Of a stretch of DNA of 64,000 nt, positions 23,913 through 62,824 are shown in pieces (the stretch's first letter is position 1; the number at the start of each line of letters is the position of its first letter). The DNA comes from an uncultured Amylibacter sp. (GTDB taxonomy: Bacteria > Pseudomonadota > Alphaproteobacteria > Rhodobacterales > Rhodobacteraceae): positions 744,001 through 808,000 of the forward strand of contig CANMGS010000001.1 of assembly GCA_947497475.1 (NCBI GenBank), given 5' to 3'. The notes under the pieces are model-generated. The model ran no database searches and had not been told where the DNA came from. It saw nothing but the letters and a program-made list of their open reading frames with translations. The translations under genes were made by a program, and so were the position numbers.

Positions 23913-23978
23913 CTTATGCGAATCCTTCGGAAATTATACAGTTTAATTCATAGTTCAGATGGTGCCAAAAACACCTTT

Positions 23979-24003
23979 AAAATGCGACAAAAGGCTGTCG
24001 CAT
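23979..24003 (-). terminator. Hairpin between the AraC-type and sarcosine dehydrogenase-like genes
   Basis: Arms ATGCGACA (23982-23989) and TGTCGCAT (23996-24003) form a perfect 8-bp stem. On the minus strand it is followed by TTT. The T-run is short, so it may only partly terminate the regulator transcript or protect an mRNA end. Confidence 0.45.
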
Positions 24004-24020
24004 CCTAACATTTTAAGGGA

Positions 24021-24998
24021 TTACATCTTATCAATCTGGGCGCGGCGCACTTGGTGCGGCGTTTGACCAAATGATTGACGATACGCCACAGAGAAACCTG
24101 ATTGATATCCACAGGCCAAAGCGACCTCTTGAATACTCATATTCGTGTTCAGCAAAAGGTTATGCGCGTGGCTTAAACGTAGCTCGCGGTAATAGCGACC
24201 AGGGCTACAGCCCGTGAGCGACTTGAAATTTCGCTCCAGCCAACGTGGTGTGCGACCAATGCTTTTGGCAAGGTCGGTCATAGTCACAGGTTCTTCGATG
24301 TTTTCCTGCATGATTTTGACCGCTTTGTTCAAAATACGTGCGTCCGTATTCAGGGTCGCAAGAATTTCTGGCTGTAAAGTGTCAAACGCACGAATGCGGT
24401 CATGCAGAATGATTTTCGATACAATCATCAGTTTTGCACTGGAAACATAACGCCCCAACAATGCCAAAGCCAAATCGGCAGTTGCACCCATACCTGCACT
24501 TGTGATCACCTTATCCTGTGTCACTGCTAGGGATGAACGGATACCATAAATACCTTGCTCTTCTTCCAACAACGCACGGTTTTCCCAGTGTGTTGTATGC
24601 AAAATAGCATTGTCTTGATTTGATGAAATGTAACGGCTAGCAGCCTCTGCCAATAGGATCACAAGCGCACCACCATGGCGGTAACGAGCCGCGAATTTTT
24701 CCACATCCAAAGACATGTAAAACGGATCAGCGCTACCGATAAATACCACATGATCTGGGCGCGGGTTTTCAGGAATAGCTTCTGTTTCAACATATGCACC
24801 AATGCTGGATGTCACGCGCCCACCATTTTCAGAACGGAACTGCCATTTGAACTTTTCAAAGCTCAACACACGGTTTGCAATCCGCAATACATCCACGATG
24901 CCAGACAACTCCATCATGACAAAGTCCTCTGACAAAACGACATCAAAAGTAACAATTTCTTTTGATGTGTCTAAAGCCGTATTCGCTTGTTTTTCCAT
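24021..24998 (-). CDS. GlxA/GbdR-type AraC-family regulator (class I GATase-like plus AraC HTH)
   Basis: A 325-residue regulator with an N-terminal DJ-1/PfpI amidotransferase-like domain (DHVVFIGSADPFY; ITSAGMGATADLALALLG) and a C-terminal AraC DNA-binding domain with two helix-turn-helix units (MTDLAKSIGRTPRWLERNF; MSIQEVALACGYQSGFSVAY). This architecture is shared with GbdR and CdhR, which activate betaine and carnitine catabolism in Pseudomonas in response to dimethylglycine or betaine. Its place between the betaine methyltransferase gene (12 bases upstream) and a sarcosine dehydrogenase-like gene supports that role. The ATG at 24998 follows a GTG in frame. Confidence 0.9.
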   Translation of the reverse strand: MEKQANTALDTSKEIVTFDVVLSEDFVMMELSGIVDVLRIANRVLSFEKFKWQFRSENGGRVTSSIGAYVETEAIPENPRPDHVVFIGSADPFYMSLDVEKFAARYRHGGALVILLAEAASRYISSNQDNAILHTTHWENRALLEEEQGIYGIRSSLAVTQDKVITSAGMGATADLALALLGRYVSSAKLMIVSKIILHDRIRAFDTLQPEILATLNTDARILNKAVKIMQENIEEPVTMTDLAKSIGRTPRWLERNFKSLTGCSPGRYYRELRLSHAHNLLLNTNMSIQEVALACGYQSGFSVAYRQSFGQTPHQVRRAQIDKM

Positions 24999-25010
24999 CA
25001 CTTAATCTCT

Positions 25011-25883
25011 CTATGACGCAAAATTCTTGGCTAACAACGCAATATGCGCTGGTCCAACTTCACAACAACCACCCACAATCGTGGCACCCTCATTAACCCA
25101 GTCTTGGGCGAATTCTAAATAGGCTTCTGGACCTAAATCATTTCGTGTTTCCAACACATCTACCGTTGCTCCGATGTGATCAAACACATCTGAAATATTC
25201 ACAAAACCGTTCGCATAAGCGCCAACTGGCAAATCATTTCCAACCAGAATTGGAACTGCTTTTGATACTGCTTCTGGAACTGAACAATTCACCAAAACAG
25301 CAGCTGGGCCGTATTCTTTTAGCAAAGGCAAAACATCACTTACAGCTTCACCCGAACGTAATTTGGTACCATCTTTGTCATCAACGGATATAGCGACCCA
25401 TACAGGTATATCATATTCAGTTGATGCCATCAAAGCACCGCGCACCTGATCCACAGATGCCATGGTTTCACATATAAACATATCCACGAATTTGGCCTGT
25501 ACATCACAGACCCGCCGATATGCATCTGCTGCCTGTTTTGCTGGTGGGCATTTGTCAGGTTGGTATGAAAACCCCTGTGGTCCCAGTGATCCAGCAACCA
25601 ATCCCGCGCCATGTGCATCACGCGATTGAACAGCTTGTTGGCAAGCAATCTCAGTCAGCTCTTGTAAACGATCGCCCAACCCATGGTGGGAAAGGCGATC
25701 TGGTAGAACCGAATACGTATTGGTCGTTGCAATCTGTGCACCTGCTTTAAAATAAGCATCATGCACATCCCGCACCCAATCTGGATGATCCAACAGGGCT
25801 TGTACTGACCAAAGCGAAGTCGCTTTGCCGGCACGGGCCACCAATTCTTGGCCCATGCCTCCATCAAGTATGGCTATGCTCAA
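25011..25883 (-). CDS. Betaine-homocysteine S-methyltransferase-like protein (TTG start)
   Basis: A 290-residue Pfam Methyltransf_2-type homocysteine S-methyltransferase with the three zinc cysteines of the family: Cys200 (VNCS) and Cys273/Cys274 (GGCCEVG). The N-terminus DGGMGQEL is conserved and requires the TTG at 25883-25881 as start; this TTG overlaps the stop of the upstream dehydrogenase (TTGA), giving translational coupling. It would move a methyl group from glycine betaine to homocysteine, yielding dimethylglycine and methionine, with dimethylglycine consumed by the neighbouring flavoprotein. S-methylmethionine is the main alternative donor; context favours betaine. Confidence 0.85.
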   Translation of the reverse strand: MSIAILDGGMGQELVARAGKATSLWSVQALLDHPDWVRDVHDAYFKAGAQIATTNTYSVLPDRLSHHGLGDRLQELTEIACQQAVQSRDAHGAGLVAGSLGPQGFSYQPDKCPPAKQAADAYRRVCDVQAKFVDMFICETMASVDQVRGALMASTEYDIPVWVAISVDDKDGTKLRSGEAVSDVLPLLKEYGPAAVLVNCSVPEAVSKAVPILVGNDLPVGAYANGFVNISDVFDHIGATVDVLETRNDLGPEAYLEFAQDWVNEGATIVGGCCEVGPAHIALLAKNFAS

Positions 25884-28333
25884 GCCATGATTCTTTCGTT
25901 AGAAGGATCCCAAAGTGGTTGGTCTTCTTGAACAACTGCTTTGAAACGGTTGCCATAGATTTCCAATTCTAACTCTGTACCAGGAGCTGTACAGTCAGCG
26001 CGAACAACGCCCAATGCAATACTTGCATTCACACGGTAACCATAGTTACCAGATGTTGTTTCACCCACACGCTCACCGTCTTTCCAAACGATTGACATGT
26101 ATGGCGCATCGATCTCTGGTGTATCCACGATCAGAGTAACAAAGCCTTTCTTAGAACCCGCTTGCTTCTCTGCTTGCAATGCAGCTTTACCTGGGAAGTC
26201 TTGTTCTTTGTTCAAACGTGTGAAACGCTCAAGACCGCCTTCTAGCAATGTGTAATCTGTTGAAAGATCACCTTTCCATGTGCGGTAGCCTTTTTCGATA
26301 CGCATTGAATCAAGCGCGAACATACCGAATGGTGTGGCACCTGCTTCACGAATAGCTTCGTAAGCATTTGCAGCATCTTCCATTTTTGTATGAACTTCCC
26401 AGCCCAATTCACCACCGAAACAGATACGCATCAATTTCGCAGGCTTGCCTGCAAATGTTGCATCTTGGTGTGTCAACCAACCTGTAGACAAGTCAGCATC
26501 TGTCAAACCTGCCAACAATTCACGTGACTTCGGACCACATACAAGATGTGTGCTGTAATCAGCTGTGATGTCGATCAACTCAAGCGAACCATCCGCAGGC
26601 AATGCTGCACGTAGGAACTCAAGATCGTGCCATTGTGCAACAGCCGCTGTCATCAACATGAAGTCATCTTCGCCAAAGCGAATGATAGTAACCTCTGTTA
26701 CCGTACGACCGCGTGTGTCAGAAAAGTAACCAAGTGTCATACGGCCAGCTTTTGGAAGTGCACCAGCAACCTGTGTGCGTAGCCATTCAGCAGCGCCTTC
26801 GCCTTTCAAGGTATAGCGAGAGAAACCCGGCATGTCCAAAACGCCAACGTTGTCGCGGCATGCTTCAACTTCTTCTTTCACACGGATCGCCCATGGACCA
26901 TTACGTTCCCATGTTTCTGTGCCTTCTTCAGAAGTGTCGTCACCGTCTTTTGCGAACCAGTTTGCACGTTCCCAACCGTTGTACGCACCCATTTGACCAC
27001 CATCAGCCAACAAACGGTCGTGGTTTTGTGATAGCTTCTTATCACGACCAGCAGGCCATTCGTGGTGTGGGAAGTGCATTGCATATTCGTGACCATATGT
27101 TTCCATAGCCTTTTGGTAGCAGAAGTCGTGATCCGCGTGGTCTGTGTAACGACGCGGGTCGATAGCCCACATATCCCACTCTGTTTCGCCGTGCATAATC
27201 CACTCAGATAGGATTTTACCTGTACCACCACCTTGGGTGATGCCGAATGTGAATGAATGTGCTTCGAATGCGTTTTTAACACCTGGCATTGGGCCAACCA
27301 TTGGCAAACCATCTGGTGCGTATGGGATAGGGCCGTTGATATTGCGGCTAACACCACCTGTACCCAACAATGGCACACGCTCACATGCATCCATGATGTA
27401 CCACTCAAGACGATCCAAATCATCTGGGTAAAGTTGGAAGCTGAAATCATCTGGCATTGGATCATCTGGGTTCACCCAGTGTGCCTTACAATTGCGCTCG
27501 TATGGACCCAAGTTCAGACCATAGTTATCTTGGCGCAAGTAGTATGAGCTGTCCACGTCACGCAACATTGGGATGTGCTGGCCACCATTACCGACTGTCC
27601 ATTCTTTCAGCTCAGGAATTTCTTCTGTTAGGAAGTACTGGTGAGACATTGTGATCATTGGAACTGTACGGCCACCGTATGGTTTGAACCATTCACCAAT
27701 ACGCTGCGCATAGTAACCACCAGCGTTCACGACATATTCACAACGAATGTCGCCTTTGTCTGTGTGTACAACCCATTCGTCGCCATCACGTGTAACACCA
27801 GTTGCTGGTGTGAAACGTTGGATTGAACCGCCTGCATCACGTGCGCCTTTTGCAAGTGCTTGTGTTAGCTGTGCTGGGTCGATGTCACCATCCAATGGGT
27901 CCCAAAGACCGCCCGCCAAATCATGTGTTTCCATGAATGGGAAGTGTTTTTGCAACTCTTCAGGTGTACACATGTCCATTTCAAGACCTTGGTAACGCGC
28001 CATAGATGCCACGTGTTCAAACTCTTGCATACGTTCTTTGTTGTGCGCCAAACGCACAGCACCAGTTACGTGGTAGTTGATTGGGTAATCCACCAATTCA
28101 GCCAAATCACGGTACATTGCCAATGAATAACGCTGCATGTTCATCACAGCCCAGTTCGCTGCAAAGTTAGGAGTGTTACCAGCCGCGTGCCATGTAGACC
28201 CTGCTGTCAATTCGTTCTTTTCCAAAAGAACACAATCTTTCCAACCAGCTTTCGCTAGGTGGTACAACGTAGAAACGCCGACGACGCCGCCGCCGATGAT
28301 GACAACTCGCGCTGTCGTTGGAAAATCAGACAT
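25880..28333 (-). CDS. Dimethylglycine dehydrogenase-like flavoprotein (FAD plus GcvT domains)
   Basis: An 817-residue protein with the same architecture as its paralogue at 21465: FAD loop VVIGGGVVGVS, flavinylation histidine in STWHAAG (His49), FAO_M linker, and C-terminal aminomethyltransferase domains (RTQVAGALPKAGRMTLGYF, KGYRTWKGDLS). The LTAGSTWHAAG block matches dimethylglycine dehydrogenase as I remember it. The reaction oxidises dimethylglycine to sarcosine and loads a one-carbon unit onto tetrahydrofolate. It overlaps the methyltransferase gene by four bases. The start has a good site (AAGGGAGAAAACT). Confidence 0.88.
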   Translation of the reverse strand: MSDFPTTARVVIIGGGVVGVSTLYHLAKAGWKDCVLLEKNELTAGSTWHAAGNTPNFAANWAVMNMQRYSLAMYRDLAELVDYPINYHVTGAVRLAHNKERMQEFEHVASMARYQGLEMDMCTPEELQKHFPFMETHDLAGGLWDPLDGDIDPAQLTQALAKGARDAGGSIQRFTPATGVTRDGDEWVVHTDKGDIRCEYVVNAGGYYAQRIGEWFKPYGGRTVPMITMSHQYFLTEEIPELKEWTVGNGGQHIPMLRDVDSSYYLRQDNYGLNLGPYERNCKAHWVNPDDPMPDDFSFQLYPDDLDRLEWYIMDACERVPLLGTGGVSRNINGPIPYAPDGLPMVGPMPGVKNAFEAHSFTFGITQGGGTGKILSEWIMHGETEWDMWAIDPRRYTDHADHDFCYQKAMETYGHEYAMHFPHHEWPAGRDKKLSQNHDRLLADGGQMGAYNGWERANWFAKDGDDTSEEGTETWERNGPWAIRVKEEVEACRDNVGVLDMPGFSRYTLKGEGAAEWLRTQVAGALPKAGRMTLGYFSDTRGRTVTEVTIIRFGEDDFMLMTAAVAQWHDLEFLRAALPADGSLELIDITADYSTHLVCGPKSRELLAGLTDADLSTGWLTHQDATFAGKPAKLMRICFGGELGWEVHTKMEDAANAYEAIREAGATPFGMFALDSMRIEKGYRTWKGDLSTDYTLLEGGLERFTRLNKEQDFPGKAALQAEKQAGSKKGFVTLIVDTPEIDAPYMSIVWKDGERVGETTSGNYGYRVNASIALGVVRADCTAPGTELELEIYGNRFKAVVQEDQPLWDPSNERIMA

Positions 28334-43324: not shown

Positions 43325-44647
43325 ATGAACATGAACTCTTTAACAAAAACTCTTGGTCTTGGTTTGGCCGCAACAGCATTGCCTGTCGCTGCTCTTGCAC
43401 AAGACGCCCCTGCTGCTGTACCAACAGAAGTGGGCTACATCCTTACAACTGTCCTATTCCTAGTCGGCGGTTTCTTAGTATTCTTTATGGCAGCTGGTTT
43501 TGCCATGCTAGAGGCTGGACTTGTCCGTTCTAAAAACGTGACAATGCAGTTGACAAAAAACATGGGGCTTTTTGGCCTAGCAACAATCTTTTACTACCTC
43601 ATTGGCTTCAACCTAATGTACCCAGGTGACGGTTGGACAGTAGCAGGCGTACTTGGTGCATTCGCGCCAACAGTACTAGAGCCAGTTGGCCTAGCAGCTG
43701 CAGACGCTGACTTATCATACGCAACAGTTGGTTCAGACTTCTTCTTCCAGTTGATGTTCTGTGCGGCAACAGCCTCTATCGTTTCTGGTGCTTTGGCTGA
43801 ACGTATCAAATTATGGCCATTCCTGATCTTTACAGTTGTATTAACTGCAGTGATCTACCCAATCCAAGCATCTTGGAAATGGGGCGGTGGTTTCTTGGAT
43901 GCTGCTGGTTTCTTGGACTTCGCTGGCTCAACAGTTGTTCACTCTGTAGGTGGCTGGGCTGCTTTGGCTGGTGCTTTGATCCTAGGCGCACGTATCGGCA
44001 AATACAAAGATGGCCGTACAATCCCTATGTTGCCTTCAAACCTTCCATTAGCAACTTTGGGTACATTCATCCTTTGGTTGGGTTGGTTCGGCTTTAACGG
44101 CGGCTCACAGCTTGCTATGGGTACAGTAGGCGACGTTGCAGACGTATCTCGCATCTTCGTAAACACAAACGCTGCTGCTGCGGCTGGTGCTATCGCTGCC
44201 TTGATCCTTACACAAGTTCTATACAAAAAGCCTGACCTAACTATGGTTCTAAACGGCGCATTGGCTGGTCTAGTATCCATCACGGCAGAACCACTTACAC
44301 CAAGCATTGGTGCAGCATCATTGATCGGTGCAGTTGGTGGTGTGGTCGTAGTCTTCGGTGTTCCATTCTTGGACAAACTGAAAATCGACGATGTTGTTGG
44401 TGCGATCCCTGTTCACCTATTCGCAGGTATCTGGGGCACAATCGCTGTAGTATTCACAAACGGTGACGCTTCATTGGGCACACAGTTGTACTCAATCGTA
44501 GTGGTCGGTGTGTTCACATTCGTAGCTTCAGCCATCCTTTGGTTCATCTTGAAAGCGGTCATCGGCATCCGTGTCAGCGAAGAAGAAGAAGTCATGGGCT
44601 TGGATAAATCTGAGCTTGGTATGGAAGCATATAACATCGAAGGTTAA
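43325..44647 (+). CDS. amtB: Ammonium transporter AmtB
   Basis: A 440-residue ammonium channel with a cleavable signal peptide (to about residue 27, ALA-QDA) and eleven membrane helices. Family blocks include FFMAAGFAMLEAGLVRSKN, VHSVGGWAALAGALILG (first pore histidine region) and VHLFAGIWGTIAVVF (second pore histidine region). The C-terminal EEEEVMGLDKSELGMEAYNIEG tail is the canonical GlnK-interacting end. Two in-frame ATGs lie at 43325 and 43331. A strong terminator follows. Confidence 0.97.
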   Translation: MNMNSLTKTLGLGLAATALPVAALAQDAPAAVPTEVGYILTTVLFLVGGFLVFFMAAGFAMLEAGLVRSKNVTMQLTKNMGLFGLATIFYYLIGFNLMYPGDGWTVAGVLGAFAPTVLEPVGLAAADADLSYATVGSDFFFQLMFCAATASIVSGALAERIKLWPFLIFTVVLTAVIYPIQASWKWGGGFLDAAGFLDFAGSTVVHSVGGWAALAGALILGARIGKYKDGRTIPMLPSNLPLATLGTFILWLGWFGFNGGSQLAMGTVGDVADVSRIFVNTNAAAAAGAIAALILTQVLYKKPDLTMVLNGALAGLVSITAEPLTPSIGAASLIGAVGGVVVVFGVPFLDKLKIDDVVGAIPVHLFAGIWGTIAVVFTNGDASLGTQLYSIVVVGVFTFVASAILWFILKAVIGIRVSEEEEVMGLDKSELGMEAYNIEG

Positions 44648-50363: not shown

Positions 50364-51281
50364 CTATGATTGTGATAAGTGTTGTTCTCGCAACATTTCC
50401 GCTGATGCTTTAACCACTTCAGAAACTTGCAAAAGGTTATCCGCCAACGGGCTCGTCTTGCGCCATACCATGCCAATCGTACGTGATGGCTGTGGGCCTT
50501 TAAAGCGTGCCACAGACACTGGCGCAGAACGTGTTTCAACAGAAACTGCCATTTCTGGTATCAACGTTACACCAATGCCAGCACCCACCATCTGTACCAA
50601 TGTCGACAAAGAGCTGCCATCCATACCATCGCGTGAAAGCGCCGAACGAATACTGCAAAAAGACAATGCTTGATCTCGAAAGCAGTGTCCCTCTTCGAGC
50701 AACAACAATCTCATCTCTGCCAAAGATTGGCTGTCGGGCACAGGTTGATCTTTATCTGCTTCACTGCGAACCAATACAAAATCTTCATCAAATAACGCCA
50801 CCTCGGTCAACGAAGGCTCTGAAATTGGCAAAGCTACAATCGCAGTGTCCAAATGCCCATCTGCCAATTCTTGTATCAGTTTTTGCGTCAGTGTTTCGCG
50901 GACGTTTATTTCAAACCCTGAATGCATTCGCGTCATGTTGCCGATTATTGTCGGCAACAAATAAGGCGCAATTGTTGGTATCACGCCAATACGCAACCGA
51001 CCAACCGATTGATCCCGCGAAGCGCGGGCAAAATCACCCAATTCATCAACTGACAATAAGATTTCGCGCACACGCAATGCAAACGATTCACCAAATTGAG
51101 TTAGTCGGATTTTGCGCGGTACGCGTTCAAACAATTCAACACCCAGAGTTTCCTCTAATTCTTTTATCTGCATCGACAACGCAGGTTGCGAAATAGCACA
51201 CGCTTCTGCTGCATGTTTAAAATGGCCATGCCGCGCCAAAGCTTCGAAATATCGAAAATGTTTAAGTGTTAAATTTTTCAT
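50364..51281 (-). CDS. oxyR: Hydrogen peroxide-sensing LysR regulator OxyR
   Basis: A 305-residue LysR-type regulator with an N-terminal HTH (FKHAAEACAISQPALSMQIKELE). The redox pair of OxyR is intact: Cys200 in EEGHCFRDQ and Cys209 in LSFCSIRS, matching Cys199/Cys208 of E. coli. Peroxide oxidises the pair to a disulfide and switches the protein to activation. It is divergent from katG, its classical target. A dyad overlapping its start codon may be an autoregulatory site. Confidence 0.94.
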   Translation of the reverse strand: MKNLTLKHFRYFEALARHGHFKHAAEACAISQPALSMQIKELEETLGVELFERVPRKIRLTQFGESFALRVREILLSVDELGDFARASRDQSVGRLRIGVIPTIAPYLLPTIIGNMTRMHSGFEINVRETLTQKLIQELADGHLDTAIVALPISEPSLTEVALFDEDFVLVRSEADKDQPVPDSQSLAEMRLLLLEEGHCFRDQALSFCSIRSALSRDGMDGSSLSTLVQMVGAGIGVTLIPEMAVSVETRSAPVSVARFKGPQPSRTIGMVWRKTSPLADNLLQVSEVVKASAEMLREQHLSQS

Positions 51282-51413: not shown

Positions 51414-53621
<2,208 letters not shown>

Positions 53622-53694: not shown

Positions 53695-54840
53695 TTATAA
53701 ACAAGCTTCAAAGAGTTTCTTTGTATTTTCATATGTCATCTCAACAGGGTTACCACCTACACTTGGGTCTTCCAAAGCTGACTTTGTAAGTGCCTCTATG
53801 TCAGGGTTTTCTACACCTAATTCAGTCAAGTTTTTCGGAATGCCAAGGCTGTCAATAAACGTCTCAACAAAACCATAAAACCCGTCAAACCCTCCAGAAA
53901 TACCCAAATAGTTTGCAGCGTCTGTTATACGCTCTTCGATAGCGCGTCGGTTGAATTTCAAAACCTCTAGCATAACCACAGCATTCGTTGTGCCATGATG
54001 CGTATTGTGATTGGCGCCAATTGGATGTGACAAAGCATGAATGGCACCCAGCCCTTTTTGAAACGCAGTTGCCCCCATTGCTGCAGCTGACATCATATGT
54101 GCACGCGCTTCGATATCTGCACCATCAGCATACGCAAGTGGCAAATTTTCTTTGACAAGCTTCATGCCCTCCAAAGCCATTCCTTGGCTCATGGGGTGAT
54201 AATGCGGCGAACAATATGCTTCTAAACAATGGGCGAAAGCATCCATGCCAGTGCCAGCCGTTATAAATTTTGGCATTCCAACTGTTAGTTCCGGATCACA
54301 GATCACAACTGTTGGCAGGAACTTAGGGTGAAAAATAATCTTTTTCTCATGGGTAGCTGAATTCGTAATAACAGATGCACGACCAACCTCTGATCCTGTC
54401 CCCGCTGTCGTTGGCACAGCTACAATTGGGGCTATCGCATCTGCATCTGCACGTGTCCACCAATCATCGATATCTTCAAAGTCCCAAAGCGGGCGTGTTT
54501 GCCCTGCCATAAATGCCAAGCATTTTCCAAGGTCCAAACCAGAACCGCCACCAAAAGCGACAACACCATCGTGACCACCTGCACGATAGACCTTCAATCC
54601 CTCTTCAACATTCAAATCCGTCGGGTTCGGATCAACATCTGAAAACATAGCGCGCCCCAAACCAGCGGCATCTAATAAGTCTAAAGTTCCTTGTGTAATT
54701 GGCATATCAGCCAAGCCTTTGTCCGTCACCAAAAGTGGTTTCTGAATGCCCGCAGCTGCACAAGCGTCCGCGATTTCAGAAATACGGCCCGCACCAAATC
54801 GGATTGCCGTTGGATATGACCAGTTTGTATTAAGTGTCAT
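53695..54840 (-). CDS. Iron-containing alcohol dehydrogenase
   Basis: A 381-residue group III (Fe-type) dehydrogenase. It has an N-terminal NAD-binding region with GGGSGLDLGK, the metal-binding helix DAFAHCLEAYCSPHYHP, and the second metal motif HALSHPIGANHNTHHG. It interconverts alcohols and aldehydes with NAD(P). The first residues (TNWSYPTAIRFGAGRISEI) are family-typical. It is the last gene of the amidohydrolase-TRAP-ligase-ALDH-ADH operon, five bases after the aldehyde dehydrogenase stop. In that context it may oxidise the hydroxyl of a gamma-glutamylated amino alcohol. Confidence 0.92.
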   Translation of the reverse strand: MTLNTNWSYPTAIRFGAGRISEIADACAAAGIQKPLLVTDKGLADMPITQGTLDLLDAAGLGRAMFSDVDPNPTDLNVEEGLKVYRAGGHDGVVAFGGGSGLDLGKCLAFMAGQTRPLWDFEDIDDWWTRADADAIAPIVAVPTTAGTGSEVGRASVITNSATHEKKIIFHPKFLPTVVICDPELTVGMPKFITAGTGMDAFAHCLEAYCSPHYHPMSQGMALEGMKLVKENLPLAYADGADIEARAHMMSAAAMGATAFQKGLGAIHALSHPIGANHNTHHGTTNAVVMLEVLKFNRRAIEERITDAANYLGISGGFDGFYGFVETFIDSLGIPKNLTELGVENPDIEALTKSALEDPSVGGNPVEMTYENTKKLFEACL

Positions 54841-54844
54841 GATC

Positions 54845-56224
54845 TTATGCCTTTTTCATATGATAGGATTTTGGACGTGTCAGGTTGTGAAAGCCAATAA
54901 CTGACAATCCACCACCACGCCCTGTGTCTTTGCAACCCGTCCAACACAGGGCAGGATCAAGGTAATCACAGCGATTGGTAAACACTGTGCCTGTTTCAAG
55001 TTGATCTGCGATCTTTTCAGCCCGCGCATAATCTTTGGTCCATAAAGATGCTGTTAAGCCAAAGTCGCTGTCGTTCATCAATGCAATCGCTTCTGCATCA
55101 TCTTTGACTTTCATGATACCAACAACAGGTCCAAAACTTTCATCGCGCATAACGCGCATCGAATGATCTACATTCACCAAAATTTGCGGCATCAAATATG
55201 CCCCGTCATCGTTTGGAAATACTGCAGGGTCAATCAGGGCTGTCGCACCCACAGCAATCGCTTCTGACGTTTGCGCCCTTACTTCATCTGCAAAACGTAC
55301 ATGGGCCATTGGTCCAAGTGTCGTTTCAGGATCGAGTGGGTTACCAAGCTTATAGCCACTTACAATTGCCACGGCTTTTTCTACAAATGCATCAAACAGG
55401 CTTTCGGCAACATAAATCCGTTCTATACCACAACAACACTGCCCAGAATTGAACATCGCACCGTCAATTAATGTATCAACTGCAACATCCAAATCAGCGT
55501 CTTCCATAACATAACCAGGATCTTTGCCACCCAATTCCAAACCCAACCCAGTGAAAGTACCAGCCGCAGCTTGTTCCATAGCTTTGCCACCCCCAACTGA
55601 GCCTGTGAAATTTACAAAACCAAAGGATTTTGCGGCAATCAAAACAGACGTCGTACCGTGATCTAGGAACACATTTTGAAATACATCGGCTGGGATGCCC
55701 ACAGATTGGAAAGCTTCGGCCATACGTTCACCAACCAATAACGTTTGTGACGCATGCTTTAATAATACCGCATTTCCTGCAATCAAAGCAGGTGCCACAG
55801 TATTTACCGCAGTCATGTATGGGTAATTCCAAGGCGCCACGACTAAGACAACACCATGCGGAACGCGTTTGATATATCTGTGAAACTCTGCGCTATCTTC
55901 GATCTGGATAGGCTCCAATGCCTCCGACGCAATATCCGCCATATGGTTTGCACGTTCGCTAAATCCACCAAACTCGCCACCATACCTAATAGGTCGCCCC
56001 ATTTGATGCGCAAGCTCGGGAACGATTTCATCATTCATAGCACCAACAGCTTGAACAGCCGCACGGACAAGCTCAATACGTTCATCTAATGGTCGTGCAG
56101 CCCATGCAACCTGCGCTTCTTTTGCGCGCACGACAGCCGCCTTTGCCTCTGTCTGTGATAAAACAGGACGTTCGGCAAAAACAGAACCATCTATGGGCGA
56201 TATACATTTAACAGTATCTGTCAT
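54845..56224 (-). CDS. Aldehyde dehydrogenase family protein
   Basis: A 459-residue NAD(P)-dependent aldehyde dehydrogenase with the catalytic cysteine region FNSGQCCCGIERIYV, the general-base motif LELGGKDPGYVM, and the cofactor region VVAPWNYPYM. It has a short N-terminus compared with the commonest ALDHs. The start at 56224, one base after the ligase stop, gives MTDTVKCISPIDG; an earlier frame opening lies inside the upstream gene. In this operon it may oxidise a gamma-glutamylaminoaldehyde, the role of PuuC in putrescine utilisation; this is inferred. Confidence 0.93.
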   Translation of the reverse strand: MTDTVKCISPIDGSVFAERPVLSQTEAKAAVVRAKEAQVAWAARPLDERIELVRAAVQAVGAMNDEIVPELAHQMGRPIRYGGEFGGFSERANHMADIASEALEPIQIEDSAEFHRYIKRVPHGVVLVVAPWNYPYMTAVNTVAPALIAGNAVLLKHASQTLLVGERMAEAFQSVGIPADVFQNVFLDHGTTSVLIAAKSFGFVNFTGSVGGGKAMEQAAAGTFTGLGLELGGKDPGYVMEDADLDVAVDTLIDGAMFNSGQCCCGIERIYVAESLFDAFVEKAVAIVSGYKLGNPLDPETTLGPMAHVRFADEVRAQTSEAIAVGATALIDPAVFPNDDGAYLMPQILVNVDHSMRVMRDESFGPVVGIMKVKDDAEAIALMNDSDFGLTASLWTKDYARAEKIADQLETGTVFTNRCDYLDPALCWTGCKDTGRGGGLSVIGFHNLTRPKSYHMKKA

Positions 56225-56225
56225 T

Positions 56226-57593
56226 TTATGCTCTTTCAAATCCGCGTGCGACTTCATAATCGGTCACAACACGGTCAAACTCTTCTTGTTCCCATTCCGC
56301 AGCCCGAGTGTAATGGTCAACGACATCGTCACCCAAAGCCGCTCTTAGGAACTTAGAATTACGAAGCGTTTCTGTCGCCGCCCGCAAGGAGCGTGGGATT
56401 TCAGAAACACCGCTTTGTTCGTACACATCGCCTTTGGTTGGCGCTTGAAGCTCTAACTTCTCTTCCAAACCTTGAATGCCAGCAGCCAATTGTACTGCCA
56501 AAGCCAAATAGGGATTCAAATCAGACCCACCAATACGGCATTCAACCCGAACGCCCTTTGTATTTGCGCCACACAAACGAAATCCAGCCGTGCGATTATC
56601 TACTGACCAAACCGTTTTAGTTGGTGCGAATGTGCCCTTAGAAAAACGTTTATAACTGTTGATATAAGGTGCTAAGAAATAGGTGTAATCTGGTGCGTAT
56701 TTAATAAGCCCAGCCAAATAATGCTTCATCGTATCTGACATCGCCAGATCATCATCTGCATCATAAAACGCGCTTGAGCCATCCATATTCCACAATGATT
56801 GATGTACATGCGATGAGCTGCCGACTTTATCATGATGCCATTTTGGCAAGAATGACGCGGCATGACCTTGCTGCCAAGCAACCTCTTTGGTTGCATGCTT
56901 TGCAATGGTGTGAAAATCAGCGCAATTCATTGCCACATCATACCTAATATTTAATTCTTCTTGGCCTGTTTCTGCTTCACCTTTTGAGTTCTCAATTGGC
57001 AATCCAGCTGCAAACAGATGATTACGCAAGGGACGCATCACATGCTCTTCTTTTGTCGTCTGAAGGATATGATAATCTTCGTTATAACCGCTAATTGGCT
57101 CTAAATCCCGAAACCCTTCTTTGCGAATTTCATCAAAGCTTTTCTCGAATAAGAAAAACTCTAATTCCGTTGCCATTTTTGCTGCAAATCCAAGATCAGC
57201 CAAACGCGTAATCTGTTTCTTCAAAACAGCACGAGGCGAGTGCGACACCTCTTTATGCGTATGATGATCCAAGACATCGCACAGCACCATAACCGTTCCT
57301 TCAAGCCATGGCACAGTGCGTAACGTATCCATGTCGGGCTTCATTACATAGTCGCCATATCCTGTTTCCCAACTGGACGACGCATATCCTTCTGGTGTGG
57401 CCATTTCCAAATCGGTTGCCAGTAAATAATTGCAACAATGAGTTTCTTCCCATGAGTGATCTATGAAGTTTTGCGCGTGAAAACGCTTTCCCGCTAAACG
57501 GCCCTGCATATCAACCAAACAGACAAGAACCGTATCAACGGTTCCTTCGGATACTTGGGATTTCAAGGCATCAAAACTTATATTTCCAGACAT
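56226..57593 (-). CDS. Glutamine-synthetase-family gamma-glutamyl-amine ligase (PuuA/GlnT-like)
   Basis: A 455-residue type III-like glutamine synthetase relative with ATP and metal motifs: MATELEFFLFE (metal glutamates), GKGEAETGQEELN-type segment (SKGEAETGQEELNIRYD), KVGSSSHVHQSLW and NRTAGFRL with the phosphate-binding arginines. Unlike housekeeping GlnA it lacks the adenylylation tyrosine loop. Its neighbours (aldehyde and alcohol dehydrogenases, an amidohydrolase, a transporter) point to ligating glutamate to an amine substrate. The start follows TAGGAATTCGA. A stable hairpin separates it from dctP. Confidence 0.88.
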   Translation of the reverse strand: MSGNISFDALKSQVSEGTVDTVLVCLVDMQGRLAGKRFHAQNFIDHSWEETHCCNYLLATDLEMATPEGYASSSWETGYGDYVMKPDMDTLRTVPWLEGTVMVLCDVLDHHTHKEVSHSPRAVLKKQITRLADLGFAAKMATELEFFLFEKSFDEIRKEGFRDLEPISGYNEDYHILQTTKEEHVMRPLRNHLFAAGLPIENSKGEAETGQEELNIRYDVAMNCADFHTIAKHATKEVAWQQGHAASFLPKWHHDKVGSSSHVHQSLWNMDGSSAFYDADDDLAMSDTMKHYLAGLIKYAPDYTYFLAPYINSYKRFSKGTFAPTKTVWSVDNRTAGFRLCGANTKGVRVECRIGGSDLNPYLALAVQLAAGIQGLEEKLELQAPTKGDVYEQSGVSEIPRSLRAATETLRNSKFLRAALGDDVVDHYTRAAEWEQEEFDRVVTDYEVARGFERA

Positions 57594-57617
57594 TCGAATT
57601 CCTACTTAATAAGATGA

Positions 57618-57644
57618 TGTTGGGCGTGCCGACCACGCCCAACA
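57618..57644. repeat. Perfect 11-bp hairpin between dctP and the ligase gene
   Basis: Arms TGTTGGGCGTG and CACGCCCAACA enclose five bases, starting nine bases after the dctP stop on the minus strand. No T-run follows. It probably stabilises the 3' end of upstream mRNA or lowers downstream expression, a known arrangement next to abundant binding-protein genes. Confidence 0.7.
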
Positions 57645-57652
57645 CAAAATGC

Positions 57653-58687
57653 TTAGCCGTAACGATACGGGCGGCCAGCTTTAACCATATCCGCATTGTA
57701 TTGCTTAAAGATGTTAACCACTTTTGCTTTTGTCTCAGACTCAGCCGCGATCTCATCCCAAAACTTCAAAGCAGCTTCTTCAACAGTCGCCCATTCCTCA
57801 TCAGGAATAGAGGTCAGTTCCATCTTAGGTCCATTCACACGAAGGGATGCTTCACCACCCCAATACCACCACTGACGGTAGTAATGAGAGCTGTCCATTG
57901 CAAGTTGTAACAACTGCTTCAAGTGGTCTGGCAATTCTTGATAGCGATCCATATTCGCAAAGAACGAACCAGCCCATGCACCAGAGATGTTATTGGTTAA
58001 GAAATAGTTTGTCACATCTGCCCAACCAACAGTGTAGTCCTCAGTAATCCCTGACCACGCGATACCATCAAGTTCGCCCGTTTGCATAGCAACCTCAATG
58101 TCCTCCCATGGCAGTGTTACTGGAACCACACCAAACTGGGTCAGGAAGCGCCCAGCCGTTGGGAAGGTAAACACACGTTTGCCTTTTAGGTCAGCCAAAC
58201 TGGTGATCGGGTCTTTGGTCGCGAAATGGCATGGGTCCCAAGCACCAGCAGACAGATGTTTTACACCAACCTTGGAATACTCCGCATCCCAAATTTCATT
58301 TAAACCATATTGGTTGAACAACACAGGTACATCTAATGAATAACGGCTTGCGAATGGGAAATATCCGCCAAAAACTGTCACCTCTGTCGGTGATGCCATA
58401 GAGTCGTCATCTGATTGCACTGCATCAATTGTTCCCTTTTGCATTGCGCGAAACAATTCACCTGTTGGCACCAATTGATCTGCAAAGAACAACTCGATTT
58501 CCATCTCATCGCCTGCGACTTTGTTAAACGCATCAATAGCAGGTTTCACAACATGTTCTGCCAAAGCGGGCCCAGCATAGGTTTGCATACGCCATTTGAT
58601 CTTGGATTGTGCGATCGCAGGGGCTGCTAAGCTAGCACCCACAGCACCCACCCCAGCGGTGGTTAAAAACTTACGTCTTGTTGTCAT
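57653..58687 (-). CDS. TRAP transporter solute-binding protein (DctP family)
   Basis: A 344-residue periplasmic binding protein with a twin-arginine-type signal (TTRRKFLTTAG, cleavage near AIA-QSK). TRAP features are GELFRAMQKGTIDAVQ, LADLKGKRVFTFPTAGRFL with the conserved arginine that usually pairs with a substrate carboxylate, and MQTGELDGIAW. It resembles the long DctP subgroup linked to keto-acid and amide substrates. The start has a strong site (AAGGAGAAGACG). Ligand unknown; the conserved arginine suggests an acidic or zwitterionic ligand. Confidence 0.92.
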   Translation of the reverse strand: MTTRRKFLTTAGVGAVGASLAAPAIAQSKIKWRMQTYAGPALAEHVVKPAIDAFNKVAGDEMEIELFFADQLVPTGELFRAMQKGTIDAVQSDDDSMASPTEVTVFGGYFPFASRYSLDVPVLFNQYGLNEIWDAEYSKVGVKHLSAGAWDPCHFATKDPITSLADLKGKRVFTFPTAGRFLTQFGVVPVTLPWEDIEVAMQTGELDGIAWSGITEDYTVGWADVTNYFLTNNISGAWAGSFFANMDRYQELPDHLKQLLQLAMDSSHYYRQWWYWGGEASLRVNGPKMELTSIPDEEWATVEEAALKFWDEIAAESETKAKVVNIFKQYNADMVKAGRPYRYG

Positions 58688-58710
58688 CGTCTTCTCCTTG
58701 TTTGGTTAAT

Positions 58711-58754
58711 GTCCAAAGGTTCTCCTCGTTACCGAGGCTCTGTGTCCCTTGGAC
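58711..58754. repeat. Imperfect hairpin between dctM and dctP
   Basis: Outer arms GTCCAA (58711-58716) and TTGGAC (58749-58754) and an inner stem CCTCG-TTAC-CGAGG (58724-58737) make a bulged hairpin in the 95-base gap. It may be a processing or mRNA-protection element for the highly expressed dctP cistron. Confidence 0.5.
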
Positions 58755-58782
58755 GGTGATATTGCTCCTGATGGAGTTCTTT

Positions 58783-60105
58783 TTATTTTCCATAAACATA
58801 ATCCGGCAGCCAAAGCGCGATCTGAGGGAAGGTCATAATCATTGCCAATGCCACGACCATGATCAGTACAAATGGCAGAATTGACCCATAAATATCACGT
58901 AGTGTTATTTCAGGTGGCGCCATTGCGCGCATAAGGAACAGGTTGTACCCAAAGGGCGGTGTCATATAGGCAATCTGCGTGGTGATCGTGTACAACACAC
59001 CATACCAAACCAGATCAAACCCCAGCACCTTTACCAACGGCACATAAAGCGGCGCTACAATAACAAGCATTGCTGTGTCGTCTAAAAATGTACCCATCAA
59101 CAGAAATGACAGCTGCATCAAGATCAAGATCACCCACGGGTCCAAACCCAATTGGTCCGTGAACAGATTGTCGATTGCTCGCACAGCACCTAAACCATCG
59201 AACACAGCTCCAAATCCAAGAGCTGCGAGTATGATCCACATGAACATACAGGAAATCGCTAATGTTTGGCGCACCGAAACTTCAAAAACTTCACGCGTCA
59301 TACGTCCCTTAACTATTGCTGCAACAAACGCAGTCATTGCACCAACTGCCGAACTTTCTACAAGGGATGTCCAACCCTTCACAAATGGCACCATCATTGC
59401 CGCAAAGATGAATACCGGCAACAAGCCGGCGCGTAGCAACTTCAATTTCTCAGACATCGTAGCTGTCCGCTCTTCTACGGGTAAAACAGGACCAAGACTT
59501 GGGTTAATTTTACAACGCACAGCGATATAAATGATAAACATCATAGCCATCATCAAACCAGGAAAAACCCCAGCCAACCAAAGTTGCCCAACTGGTTGAC
59601 GTGCGATCATCGCGTATAGAACAAGTACAACAGATGGCGGCACAAGAATACCCAGCGAAGACCCCGCTTGTATCACCCCTGTGACCATCCGCTTATCATA
59701 TCCGCGCTTTAACAGTTCGGGCAATGCAATCGTGGCACCGATGGCCATGCCAGCAACAGATAGGCCATTCATAGCGGAGACTAGAACCATTAAACCTATC
59801 GTGCCTATAGCAAGGCCACCGTGCACGGGCCCCATCCAGACATGAAACATCTTATAAAGATCGTCAGCAATCTTACTCTCGGACAGGATATAACCCATAA
59901 AAATAAACATCGGTAATGTCAGCAAAGGATACCATTTCATCAACTTCATTGCAGATGAAAAAGGAATATCCGAACCACCCGTACCCCATAATGTAAGCGC
60001 AGCAATCGCACCCACTGCGCCAATCGCACCAAAGACTCTTTGCCCCGTAAACAGCATTAACATCATGGTCGAAAACATGATTATCGCGATCATTTCATGC
60101 GACAT
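58783..60105 (-). CDS. TRAP transporter large permease (DctM)
   Basis: A 440-residue, twelve-helix DctM protein: LLTLPMFIFMGYILSESKIADDLY, the loop GLSVAGMAIGATIALPELLKRGYDK, SLGILVPPSVVLVLYA and the C-terminal YMTPPFGYNLFLM are family hallmarks. It couples sodium influx to substrate uptake together with DctQ. Its ATG overlaps the dctQ stop (TAATG), as usual for these pairs. Confidence 0.95.
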   Translation of the reverse strand: MSHEMIAIIMFSTMMLMLFTGQRVFGAIGAVGAIAALTLWGTGGSDIPFSSAMKLMKWYPLLTLPMFIFMGYILSESKIADDLYKMFHVWMGPVHGGLAIGTIGLMVLVSAMNGLSVAGMAIGATIALPELLKRGYDKRMVTGVIQAGSSLGILVPPSVVLVLYAMIARQPVGQLWLAGVFPGLMMAMMFIIYIAVRCKINPSLGPVLPVEERTATMSEKLKLLRAGLLPVFIFAAMMVPFVKGWTSLVESSAVGAMTAFVAAIVKGRMTREVFEVSVRQTLAISCMFMWIILAALGFGAVFDGLGAVRAIDNLFTDQLGLDPWVILILMQLSFLLMGTFLDDTAMLVIVAPLYVPLVKVLGFDLVWYGVLYTITTQIAYMTPPFGYNLFLMRAMAPPEITLRDIYGSILPFVLIMVVALAMIMTFPQIALWLPDYVYGK

Positions 60106-60611
60106 TACAAGTCCACCTTTTTGATTTTGGCGATGTCTTTGATCAGCTCAGAGATCGACTGTAAGAGCATCATAAAGATGCCAAAACACATGATGGTTTT
60201 GATTGGCCACAAATAGGGTCGCCATGCTGTTGGGCTCCGTTCATTGTATTGGAAAGAATAGCTTGTGCTATCTATGGCGCCGTACATCATGACACCAAGG
60301 TAAAAGATTAGAAACAAGATGGTGATCGCATCTACTTGCGCTTTTCTGTGATCTGTCCATTCACCATAAAACAAATCCATGCGCACGTTTGATCCCAGTT
60401 GAATCGAATACGGCCCACCTAAGATATAATATGCAACCATAGCAAATTGTGCGATTTCTAACGTCCATAAAGACGGTAAGAAGAATGTTTTCGAAATTGA
60501 AGACCACAGTAACACAGCAACCATTACAAAGATGCCGTACATAATGATGCGCCCCATACGGTAATTTATGGCATCAACGATCGTTACGTATTTGCGCGCG
60601 AACCCAATCAT
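60105..60611 (-). CDS. TRAP transporter small permease (DctQ)
   Basis: A 168-residue, four-helix membrane protein with the DctQ features: N-terminal helix followed by LWSSISKTFFLPSLWTLEIAQFAMVAYYILGGPYSI, then DLFYGEWTDHRKAQVD. It forms the membrane unit with DctM. It overlaps the amidohydrolase gene by four bases upstream and dctM by one base downstream, so all belong to one operon. Confidence 0.92.
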   Translation of the reverse strand: MIGFARKYVTIVDAINYRMGRIIMYGIFVMVAVLLWSSISKTFFLPSLWTLEIAQFAMVAYYILGGPYSIQLGSNVRMDLFYGEWTDHRKAQVDAITILFLIFYLGVMMYGAIDSTSYSFQYNERSPTAWRPYLWPIKTIMCFGIFMMLLQSISELIKDIAKIKKVDL

Positions 60612-61393
60612 GCTGCACCGTCAATTGTTAAAACTTCATTCATTTCCAAAATGCTTTGCTGGAGTAAGTTTGTGATAATCTGCGCGATTTCAGTTTGTTG
60701 ATCTGGGGTTTCCAATAGATCATTTCGCACTTCGATCATTACATTGATCAAACCATTGCGTGTTCCATGCAGCGCTAAGGTATGCGCAACACCATCATCC
60801 TTTGAATATGGTTCATTCAGGGACACTTTTAAGTCTGTATTCGTTTGTGCCAGCTCTACCATTTTAACAGCGAGCCTGTTGTCTTCGTCGTGTATTAAGC
60901 CGATCTCGATTGTTCTTAATTTACCAAAATATAGTGGTGTAAAACTGTGTATGGTGACCAATATAGGTTTCTGGGGGTAGGAATTGAGTGTATCCGATAG
61001 CAACTTTTTAAAAGGCTCATAAACAGTACATATGCGTTCTTTTTTGTCATCTGCGGATAGTCCTACATTGCCTTTTATGGCGATAACTTCGCTTTTTTCC
61101 GGCATCGCATCACGCGCGTTTGGTGGTCTGTTACAATCATAAACCAATCGCGATACTCCACTCATGACAACTTTTGCATCTAGTTTTTCACTTAGCTTCT
61201 CGGATAGGGCTTTAGCCCCTATATCCCAAGCCGCATGAGACCGTTTCGCAGCAGCATCTAATCCCAACCCACTATAACGGTCAGGGATATAATTGCTGGC
61301 ATGTTCACACACCAATAGCACCCGCGATTGCCCCTGCTCATTTATAAGCAATGCGGTTTGATCAGACGCAGATGATGACGTCATCAAGCTCAA
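60608..61393 (-). CDS. N-formylglutamate amidohydrolase-family protein
   Basis: A 261-residue member of the N-formylglutamate amidohydrolase (FGase) family: VLLVCEHASNYIP (metal-binding Glu/His), HAAWDIGAKAL, SRLVYDCNRPP and VTIHSFTPLYFG are typical blocks. Classical members act at the end of histidine degradation, but no hut genes are present. In this operon it may cleave an N-acyl or gamma-glutamyl amide formed by the ligase. A TTG at 61393 sits seven bases after GGGAG; an ATG at 61384 is the alternative start. It is first in its operon and is divergent from rpiR. Confidence 0.87.
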   Translation of the reverse strand: MSLMTSSSASDQTALLINEQGQSRVLLVCEHASNYIPDRYSGLGLDAAAKRSHAAWDIGAKALSEKLSEKLDAKVVMSGVSRLVYDCNRPPNARDAMPEKSEVIAIKGNVGLSADDKKERICTVYEPFKKLLSDTLNSYPQKPILVTIHSFTPLYFGKLRTIEIGLIHDEDNRLAVKMVELAQTNTDLKVSLNEPYSKDDGVAHTLALHGTRNGLINVMIEVRNDLLETPDQQTEIAQIITNLLQQSILEMNEVLTIDGAA

Positions 61394-61520
61394 AACGATT
61401 CTCCCAAAGTGTTATATGTAAAATTCTCTTCACTCTTTGCGCAGCTGTCAAATAGTTTTTGTAAAAATCTCTTCAAAAATGCAGGAGATGTCGATATATA
61501 AACAAAAAAAGGCTATTAGT

Positions 61521-62387
61521 ATGATCACTGGAACCATAGAAGAGCGCCTAAAAGCGCAATCAGAAACGTTAACCCGCGCCGAACGGCAACTGGTAGATGT
61601 GGTTTTAGAAAATTATCCCGTATCTGGTTTGGGCTCTATAACAGCGCTTGCAGAAAAGGCGGATGTGTCCACACCAACCGTTGCACGACTTGTTCAAAAG
61701 ATTGGATACAAAGGGTTCCCTGAATTTCAGCAACAACTCAGACACGAATTAGAAGCTCAAATAACAGGACCAATCGCCAAACACGATACTTGGGTAGACC
61801 AAGTACCAGACACACATATTTTAAACCGTTTCACAGAAGCCGTAATGGTTAATATTAAGAAGACCCTGAATCAAATTGATACGGGGATTTTCGATCAAAG
61901 CTGCGCACTTCTGGCAGATACCGACCGATCTATTTATGTAGTTGGAGGCCGTATTACACGTTCACTAGCAGATTATTTCTTCTTACATATGCAAGTTATT
62001 CGCCCAGATATCACTCACATTCAATCCATCTCGAATGCATGGCCACATTACCTTTTGAACATAAAAAAAGGTGATATCATCGTCGTGTTTGACATACGGC
62101 GTTATGAAAACAGTACTTTGAAACTTGTTGAACTCGCCGCCAAAAAAGGCGCAGAGATTATCCTATTAACGGACCAATGGAAGTCGCCCATTAGCAAACT
62201 TACCCCATTGGTCTTCGGGTCACGTATAACCGCACCATCAGCATGGGATTCTAATGTAGCAAACTTATTATTGCTCGAGACAATCATTGCTCAAGTACAA
62301 GAATTAATCTGGCCAGAAACAAAGGCGCGAATGGAAGAACTTGAACAGATGTTCGACGACACCAAATTCTTTCGCAAATTTACTTAA
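61521..62387 (+). CDS. MurR/RpiR-family transcriptional regulator
   Basis: A 288-residue regulator: N-terminal RpiR HTH (LTRAERQLVDVVLENYP; ITALAEKADVSTPTVARLVQKIGYKGFPEF) and a C-terminal SIS sugar-isomerase-like ligand domain (SIYVVGGRITRSLADYF; DIIVVFDIRRYENSTLKLVELA). The chosen ATG at 61521 gives the family's usual N-terminus; the frame opens 84 bases earlier with no conserved content. It is divergent from the amidohydrolase-TRAP-ligase operon across about 127 bases and is its probable regulator. Its stop lies exactly where a truncated Crp gene begins. Confidence 0.92.
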   Translation: MITGTIEERLKAQSETLTRAERQLVDVVLENYPVSGLGSITALAEKADVSTPTVARLVQKIGYKGFPEFQQQLRHELEAQITGPIAKHDTWVDQVPDTHILNRFTEAVMVNIKKTLNQIDTGIFDQSCALLADTDRSIYVVGGRITRSLADYFFLHMQVIRPDITHIQSISNAWPHYLLNIKKGDIIVVFDIRRYENSTLKLVELAAKKGAEIILLTDQWKSPISKLTPLVFGSRITAPSAWDSNVANLLLLETIIAQVQELIWPETKARMEELEQMFDDTKFFRKFT

Positions 62388-62404: not shown

Positions 62405-62824
62405 ATGTCAGCCAGAACTCTTGAGAAATCCAAGATCATTTTACTGCCTGCAATAGATGTACGAGCCGTCTTTGAAATTGATAATGCGTTTGCCAGAGCC
62501 GTCGTGACGGAACTCGCCCAATGCTACCGCGGTGTTATCAAAAACACCAAGAACCTGAAATTGCGCACATCCATTGAACGGCTCGCAAATCAATTGGTAA
62601 AGTTGTATGTCAGGTCAGGAAACTTGGCAGAGTTTCCATTAAATATCGAGAAAAAACGATTGGCTTCGTATTTAGGGATGACCCCTGAAAATCTTTCACG
62701 TGCCTTTAAAACATTACAAGCTTATGGCGTGGTGATCAAAGGACAGAATGTAAAATTGACGGATATTGATGCCCTAAAGAGTCTTGCAAAGCCAACACCA
62801 CTTATTGATGATCCTAAAAGTTAA
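62405..62824 (+). pseudogene. 5'-truncated Crp/Fnr-family regulator (sensory domain lost)
   Basis: The 139-residue frame contains only the end of the beta-roll (SKIILLPAIDVRAVFEIDNAF), the dimerisation helix and the C-terminal HTH (RLASYLGMTPENLSRAFKTL) of a Crp/Fnr protein. The cyclic-nucleotide or effector domain is missing. The matching frame continues upstream of the ATG as K-D-A-P-C-L, resembling the DAPYLMSARTLEKS stretch I remember from full-length Roseobacter homologues, up to the rpiR stop at 62385-62387. No Shine-Dalgarno precedes the ATG. It is most likely a remnant made by a deletion or insertion; a functional DNA-binding-only protein is less likely. Confidence 0.75.

Follow-up and report, generated by a model that had tools for sequence, protein, structure and literature searches.

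The seven genes at 53695-61393 of the window, which is a stretch of 64,000 nucleotides from an uncultured Amylibacter sp., raise the question of which amine or amino alcohol their products would import, gamma-glutamylate and oxidise, and whether such a system has been described before.

Gene content, gene order and the published counterpart

The open reading frames place seven packed genes on the minus strand with a divergent RpiR gene beside them, all eight where the first-pass annotation had put them, and Pfam names the family of every one, so that the proposed arrangement was borne out. In order of transcription, the operon opens with an FGase-family amidohydrolase (60608..61393; Pfam FGase), the predicted gamma-glutamylglycine amidohydrolase (GGAH). 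It is followed by the EtoV-like small permease (60105..60611; DctQ) and the EtoW-like large permease (58783..60105; DctM) of a TRAP transporter, both conserved in position, and by the EtoX-like solute-binding protein (57653..58687; DctP), the predicted ethanolamine receptor. The last three genes encode a GS-family ligase (56226..57593; Gln-synt_C), predicted to be a gamma-glutamylethanolamide synthetase, an ALDH (54845..56224; Aldedh), the predicted gamma-glutamylacetaldehydeamide dehydrogenase, and an iron-type ADH (53695..54840; Fe-ADH and ADH_Fe_C), the predicted gamma-glutamylethanolamide dehydrogenase. Spacing within the operon ranges from small overlaps to a gap of 95 bp. The RpiR-family regulator (61521..62387, plus strand) carries HTH_6 and SIS domains. 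Two of the starts differ from those of the longest reading frames. For the ALDH, whose frame extends to 56257, the internal ATG at 56224 right behind the ligase stop appears the more likely start, and for the regulator, with a frame of 61437-62387, position 61521, a few codons ahead of the HTH domain match, appears more likely.

An ethanolamine operon (MED193_10021-10056, with etoVWX) is reported for the roseobacter Phaeobacter sp. MED193 in the order RpiR, gamma-glutamylglycine amidohydrolase, EtoV, EtoW, EtoX, ethanolamine gamma-glutamylase, gamma-glutamylacetaldehydeamide dehydrogenase and gamma-glutamylethanolamide dehydrogenase (available text of PMC10132767). According to the same text, MED193 EtoX binds ethanolamine with a Kd of 7.9 uM and does not bind phosphorylethanolamine, phosphocholine or two glycerol phosphates, phosphorylethanolamine raises five proteins of the operon, and the enzyme names are based on prediction and proteomics. 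Compared by family and order, the eight families of the window are identical to those of MED193, and no difference in gene content or order was found; by position the regulator, the ALDH and the ADH of the window correspond to MED193_10021, MED193_10051 and MED193_10056. In the locus of a named Phaeobacter (L072) the genes stand in the window's order, with a binding protein 87% and an FGase 47% identical to those of the window. The operon of the window is with high confidence an eto-type ethanolamine catabolic operon, and because the same eight families occur in the same order in MED193, it is counted as a real system that is already described in print and not as a new one. Both the route claimed by the first-pass annotation (import, gamma-glutamylation, oxidation of alcohol to aldehyde to acid, and amide hydrolysis) and its guess of an ethanolamine-like substrate agree with the MED193 operon, the latter also with the ethanolamine-binding EtoX, and are very probably right. 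A literature search found no further published work on this route beyond the studies compared here.

Binding protein, ligase and the choice of substrate

Among the 43 solved sequences that matched it, the DctP protein of the window was by far nearest to 4uab (E 1.9e-183), the next best match reaching 7.1e-14. The 4UAB structure is that of Csal_0678 of Chromohalobacter salexigens with ethanolamine bound and Glu220 in the platform, as far as given in the text available for PMC12410723. Most TRAP binding proteins take carboxylates, and Csal_0678 is reported to be without the carboxylate-selecting arginine (available text of PMC4646407). In the window, Phe173 aligns where the TRAP protein 2hzk has its arginine, and Glu216, the nearest glutamate there in the alignment, would correspond to Glu220 of Csal_0678. 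Both residues were kept in all 80 loci, these being the best 80 of at least 588 confirmed stretches. The features of an ethanolamine-type binding protein are thus found in the alignment, the carboxylate arginine being absent and a glutamate being kept in the platform stretch.

The ligase of the window was nearest to 5dm3 (Csal_0679) among solved sequences, so that one cluster, Csal_0678/Csal_0679, supplies by far the nearest solved sequences to both proteins; Vetting et al. 2015 is said to be the primary study of it. Unlike the host of the window, C. salexigens is a gammaproteobacterium (PMC5812351, in the part available). Earlier work on this pathway in C. salexigens and A. tumefaciens is called demonstrated in the available text of PMC10132767, and the C. 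salexigens route is called predicted in silico in that of PMC6529630. The latter text also gives GlnA4 of Streptomyces coelicolor as a corresponding, characterised GS-family ethanolamine ligase, and proposes two dehydrogenases and a formylglutamate-amidohydrolase-family enzyme for its pathway. It differs in being actinobacterial, and in the available text of PMC6529630 the word TRAP occurs only as an instrument name. The FGase of the window was nearest to Atu2144 (2odf, E 6.1e-62). The ADH reached no specific NCBIfam cut-off, and neither did the ALDH within the top 25 of 44 models.

Nine residues of the window ligase, which we take to be GS active-site residues, were all kept in 58 of 61 ligase homologues, the other three being cut short. 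The GS fold and the presumed glutamate and ATP residues would also suit an ordinary glutamine synthetase in an operon for carboxylate uptake, carboxylates being the ligands of most TRAP binding proteins. This reading is extremely improbable given the phenylalanine at the 2hzk arginine position throughout the best 80 of at least 588 stretches, and given that the genes for ligase, DctP and FGase lie together in one order in at least 56 of 149 family genomes. The genome itself also argues against it. It holds five GS-family genes, of which the operon copy is only the fourth by GS-profile score, and since one of the other four fits that profile far better, the housekeeping role probably falls to another gene than the operon's. 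Amine chemistry of another kind is offered by the Puu putrescine pathway, which likewise proceeds by glutamylation, aldehyde oxidation and amide hydrolysis. A GS-family ligase next to an ALDH and a hydrolase recalls PuuA, PuuC and PuuD, and the PuuA model does score 192.9 bits on the window ligase, but this is far under its cut-off of 650, and the label 'PuuA-like' given by the first-pass annotation holds only loosely. Moreover, Pfam detected neither a PuuB-type oxidase nor a PuuD-type amidase among the eight genes, the sole hydrolase of the operon being of the FGase family. The ADH would have no role in such a pathway, and the binding protein belongs to the ethanolamine type. That putrescine or a diamine like it is imported and gamma-glutamylated here has therefore next to no probability.

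A different small amino alcohol, such as alaninol, isopropanolamine or 3-aminopropanol, could be processed by this chemistry, which would not differ for other primary amines with an alcohol group, and the compounds that EtoX is reported not to bind are phosphate compounds and not amino alcohols (available text of PMC10132767). Against this stand the very close relation of the window binding protein to Csal_0678, whose solved structure contains ethanolamine, and the place of the window protein in the same operon type as the ethanolamine-binding EtoX, induced by an ethanolamine source according to the same text. Such a substrate is therefore very unlikely, and ethanolamine is retained as the almost certain substrate of the eto-type operon.

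Conservation of the block and its exceptions

Conservation was scored in the best 80 of at least 588 confirmed stretches with the closest binding proteins, a sample that leans to close relatives. Enough flank, that is at least 5000 bases before and at least 6500 after the start of the binding-protein gene, was available in 52 of these 80 loci. All eight genes were found in 37 of the 52, always ordered and oriented as in the window and with a divergent RpiR homologue at the same place (37 of 37). The other 15 were without one or more of the eight, a gene being scored as missing where tblastn gave nothing at E 1e-10, which a diverged regulator could escape. The conservation of gene order that the first-pass annotation had proposed to look for in relatives is found within this sample of 80.

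In a survey of 149 family genomes, the window's own included, the binding protein was present in 87 at E 1e-100, the ligase in 92 at E 1e-110, and both in 81. Co-location, which took in 87 binding-protein matches and 93 ligase matches, placed the two no more than 6 kb apart on one strand in 68 of the 149 (68 of the 81 holding both) and not close together in 13 of the 81. At the cut-offs used, 6 of the 149 genomes had the binding protein without the ligase, 11 the ligase without the binding protein, and 51 neither. FGase, DctP and ligase were close together, always in the order FGase-DctP-ligase, in at least 56 of the 149; the FGase matches taken in were the top-ranking ones, as far as E 4.6e-48, and that of G163, which makes FGase counts lower bounds. 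With 37 of 52 loci complete in one order and this triplet in at least 56 genomes, the arrangement is not due to chance. The co-occurrence of amidohydrolase and ligase in relatives, the lack of which would have counted against the first-pass annotation, comes out mostly on its side, with exceptions that include 8 of 15 genomes searched again.

Most of these 15 related genomes were chosen for a binding-protein locus that showed no ligase: 13 have other genes behind the binding protein, in L007 the contig ends there, and in L049 the ligase adjoins. A close ligase was absent from the whole genome in 8 of the 15, three having no ligase at E 1e-60, four only homologues of 31-33% identity and one a homologue of 43%. 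Several of the ligase-poor genomes are metagenome assemblies and may be incomplete, but there are also two named strains, Denitrobaculum tricleocarpae and Sneathiella glossodoripedis. The remaining 7 have a ligase of at least 50% identity. It adjoins the binding protein in L049 and a binding-protein fragment in L007, where it is for that reason probably also adjacent to the binding protein; in L009 it lies in a separate block with RpiR and ALDH homologues of its own, and in the four further genomes it lies away from the binding-protein locus examined.

An RpiR-FGase-TRAP block with no ligase, ALDH or ADH nearby is seen in L023, L030, L065 and L079; their genomes gave no match to EutB and, at E 1e-60, no ligase homologues other than ones of 31-33%. 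In L065 (Denitrobaculum) and in L030 and L079 (Kiloniellaceae), the nearest GS homologue (31-32%) adjoins a second FGase homologue. Transporter, FGase and regulator may be a unit of their own in these relatives, with a distant ligase taking the place of the usual one, and this could amount to an undescribed second way of glutamylating ethanolamine or some related amine; this reading, which applies to the relatives and not to the window, is unlikely. In L090, L091 and L092 a second FGase homologue (34-37%) adjoins a distant GS homologue (about 31%), possibly forming a further GS plus FGase pair.

The idea that ligase-less loci carry eutBC instead, which would have been independent confirmation of ethanolamine, was not borne out, as EutB, which alone was searched, gave no match in any of the 15 genomes. 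Nor did EutB give a match in the genome of the window, the E. coli control being positive, and a Eut-type ethanolamine ammonia-lyase was rejected as an alternative or extra route.

Predicted regulation, neighbourhood and route

De novo motif search in 50 intergenic regions, those of 49 loci and the window, gave a palindromic motif near CTGAAAA.AT.TTTTCAG. This 18-base palindrome scored 353.7 against 35.1 in the shuffled control, scores that overstate the independent support because the sequences are related and the controls were made by shuffling bases. The best motif match in the window is the predicted regulator-binding palindrome at 61458..61477, with the core TGAAGAGATTTTTACA, and the second is the copy at 61415..61434, with the core TGAAGAGAATTTTACA, both cores being read on the minus strand. 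On the strength of this motif, the RpiR protein may bind the two palindromes.

Several other genes of the region were noted. Directly behind the RpiR gene, a 139 aa reading frame (62405-62824, plus strand) matches only the C-terminal positions 94-231 of the 236-position FtrB regulator model, and since it follows so closely there seems to be no room for the N-terminal half; it is possibly a truncated gene. No tblastn homologue of it was found at E 1e-10 in the best 80 of at least 588 loci. On the other side of the operon, a gene at 51414-53621 (plus strand) reads as a catalase-peroxidase (KatG), and the divergent LysR-type regulator beside it (50364-51281, minus strand) reads as OxyR-like. An ammonium transporter family gene (43325-44647, plus strand) lies about 9 kb off the operon. 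Methylated-amine catabolism in the same region is suggested by two genes (21465-28333, minus strand) of the FAD oxidoreductase plus aminomethyltransferase type, presumably dimethylglycine/sarcosine dehydrogenase-like.

For the organism of the window we infer each enzyme step, the order of the steps, and the ligand and sites of the regulator. The EtoVWX-type TRAP transporter would import ethanolamine, probably freed from the headgroups of membrane lipids, and the GS-family ligase would couple it with ATP to the gamma-carboxyl of glutamate, giving gamma-glutamylethanolamide. The iron-type ADH and then the ALDH would oxidise the alcohol, first to the aldehyde and then to gamma-glutamylglycine. 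With the amine masked by the glutamyl group, a free aminoaldehyde would not arise on the way. The FGase-family enzyme would split gamma-glutamylglycine into glutamate and glycine. The divergent RpiR would control the operon, probably through the two palindromes between its own gene and that of the FGase. To the published system the analysis adds a testable operator prediction, which is minor, and names genomes that have the transporter and are without a close ligase. By these findings, the genes for turning lipid-derived ethanolamine into glycine appear to be complete in one more marine-type alphaproteobacterium, and the survey gives the breadth of the block in the family, binding protein and ligase lying close together in 68 of 149 genomes.
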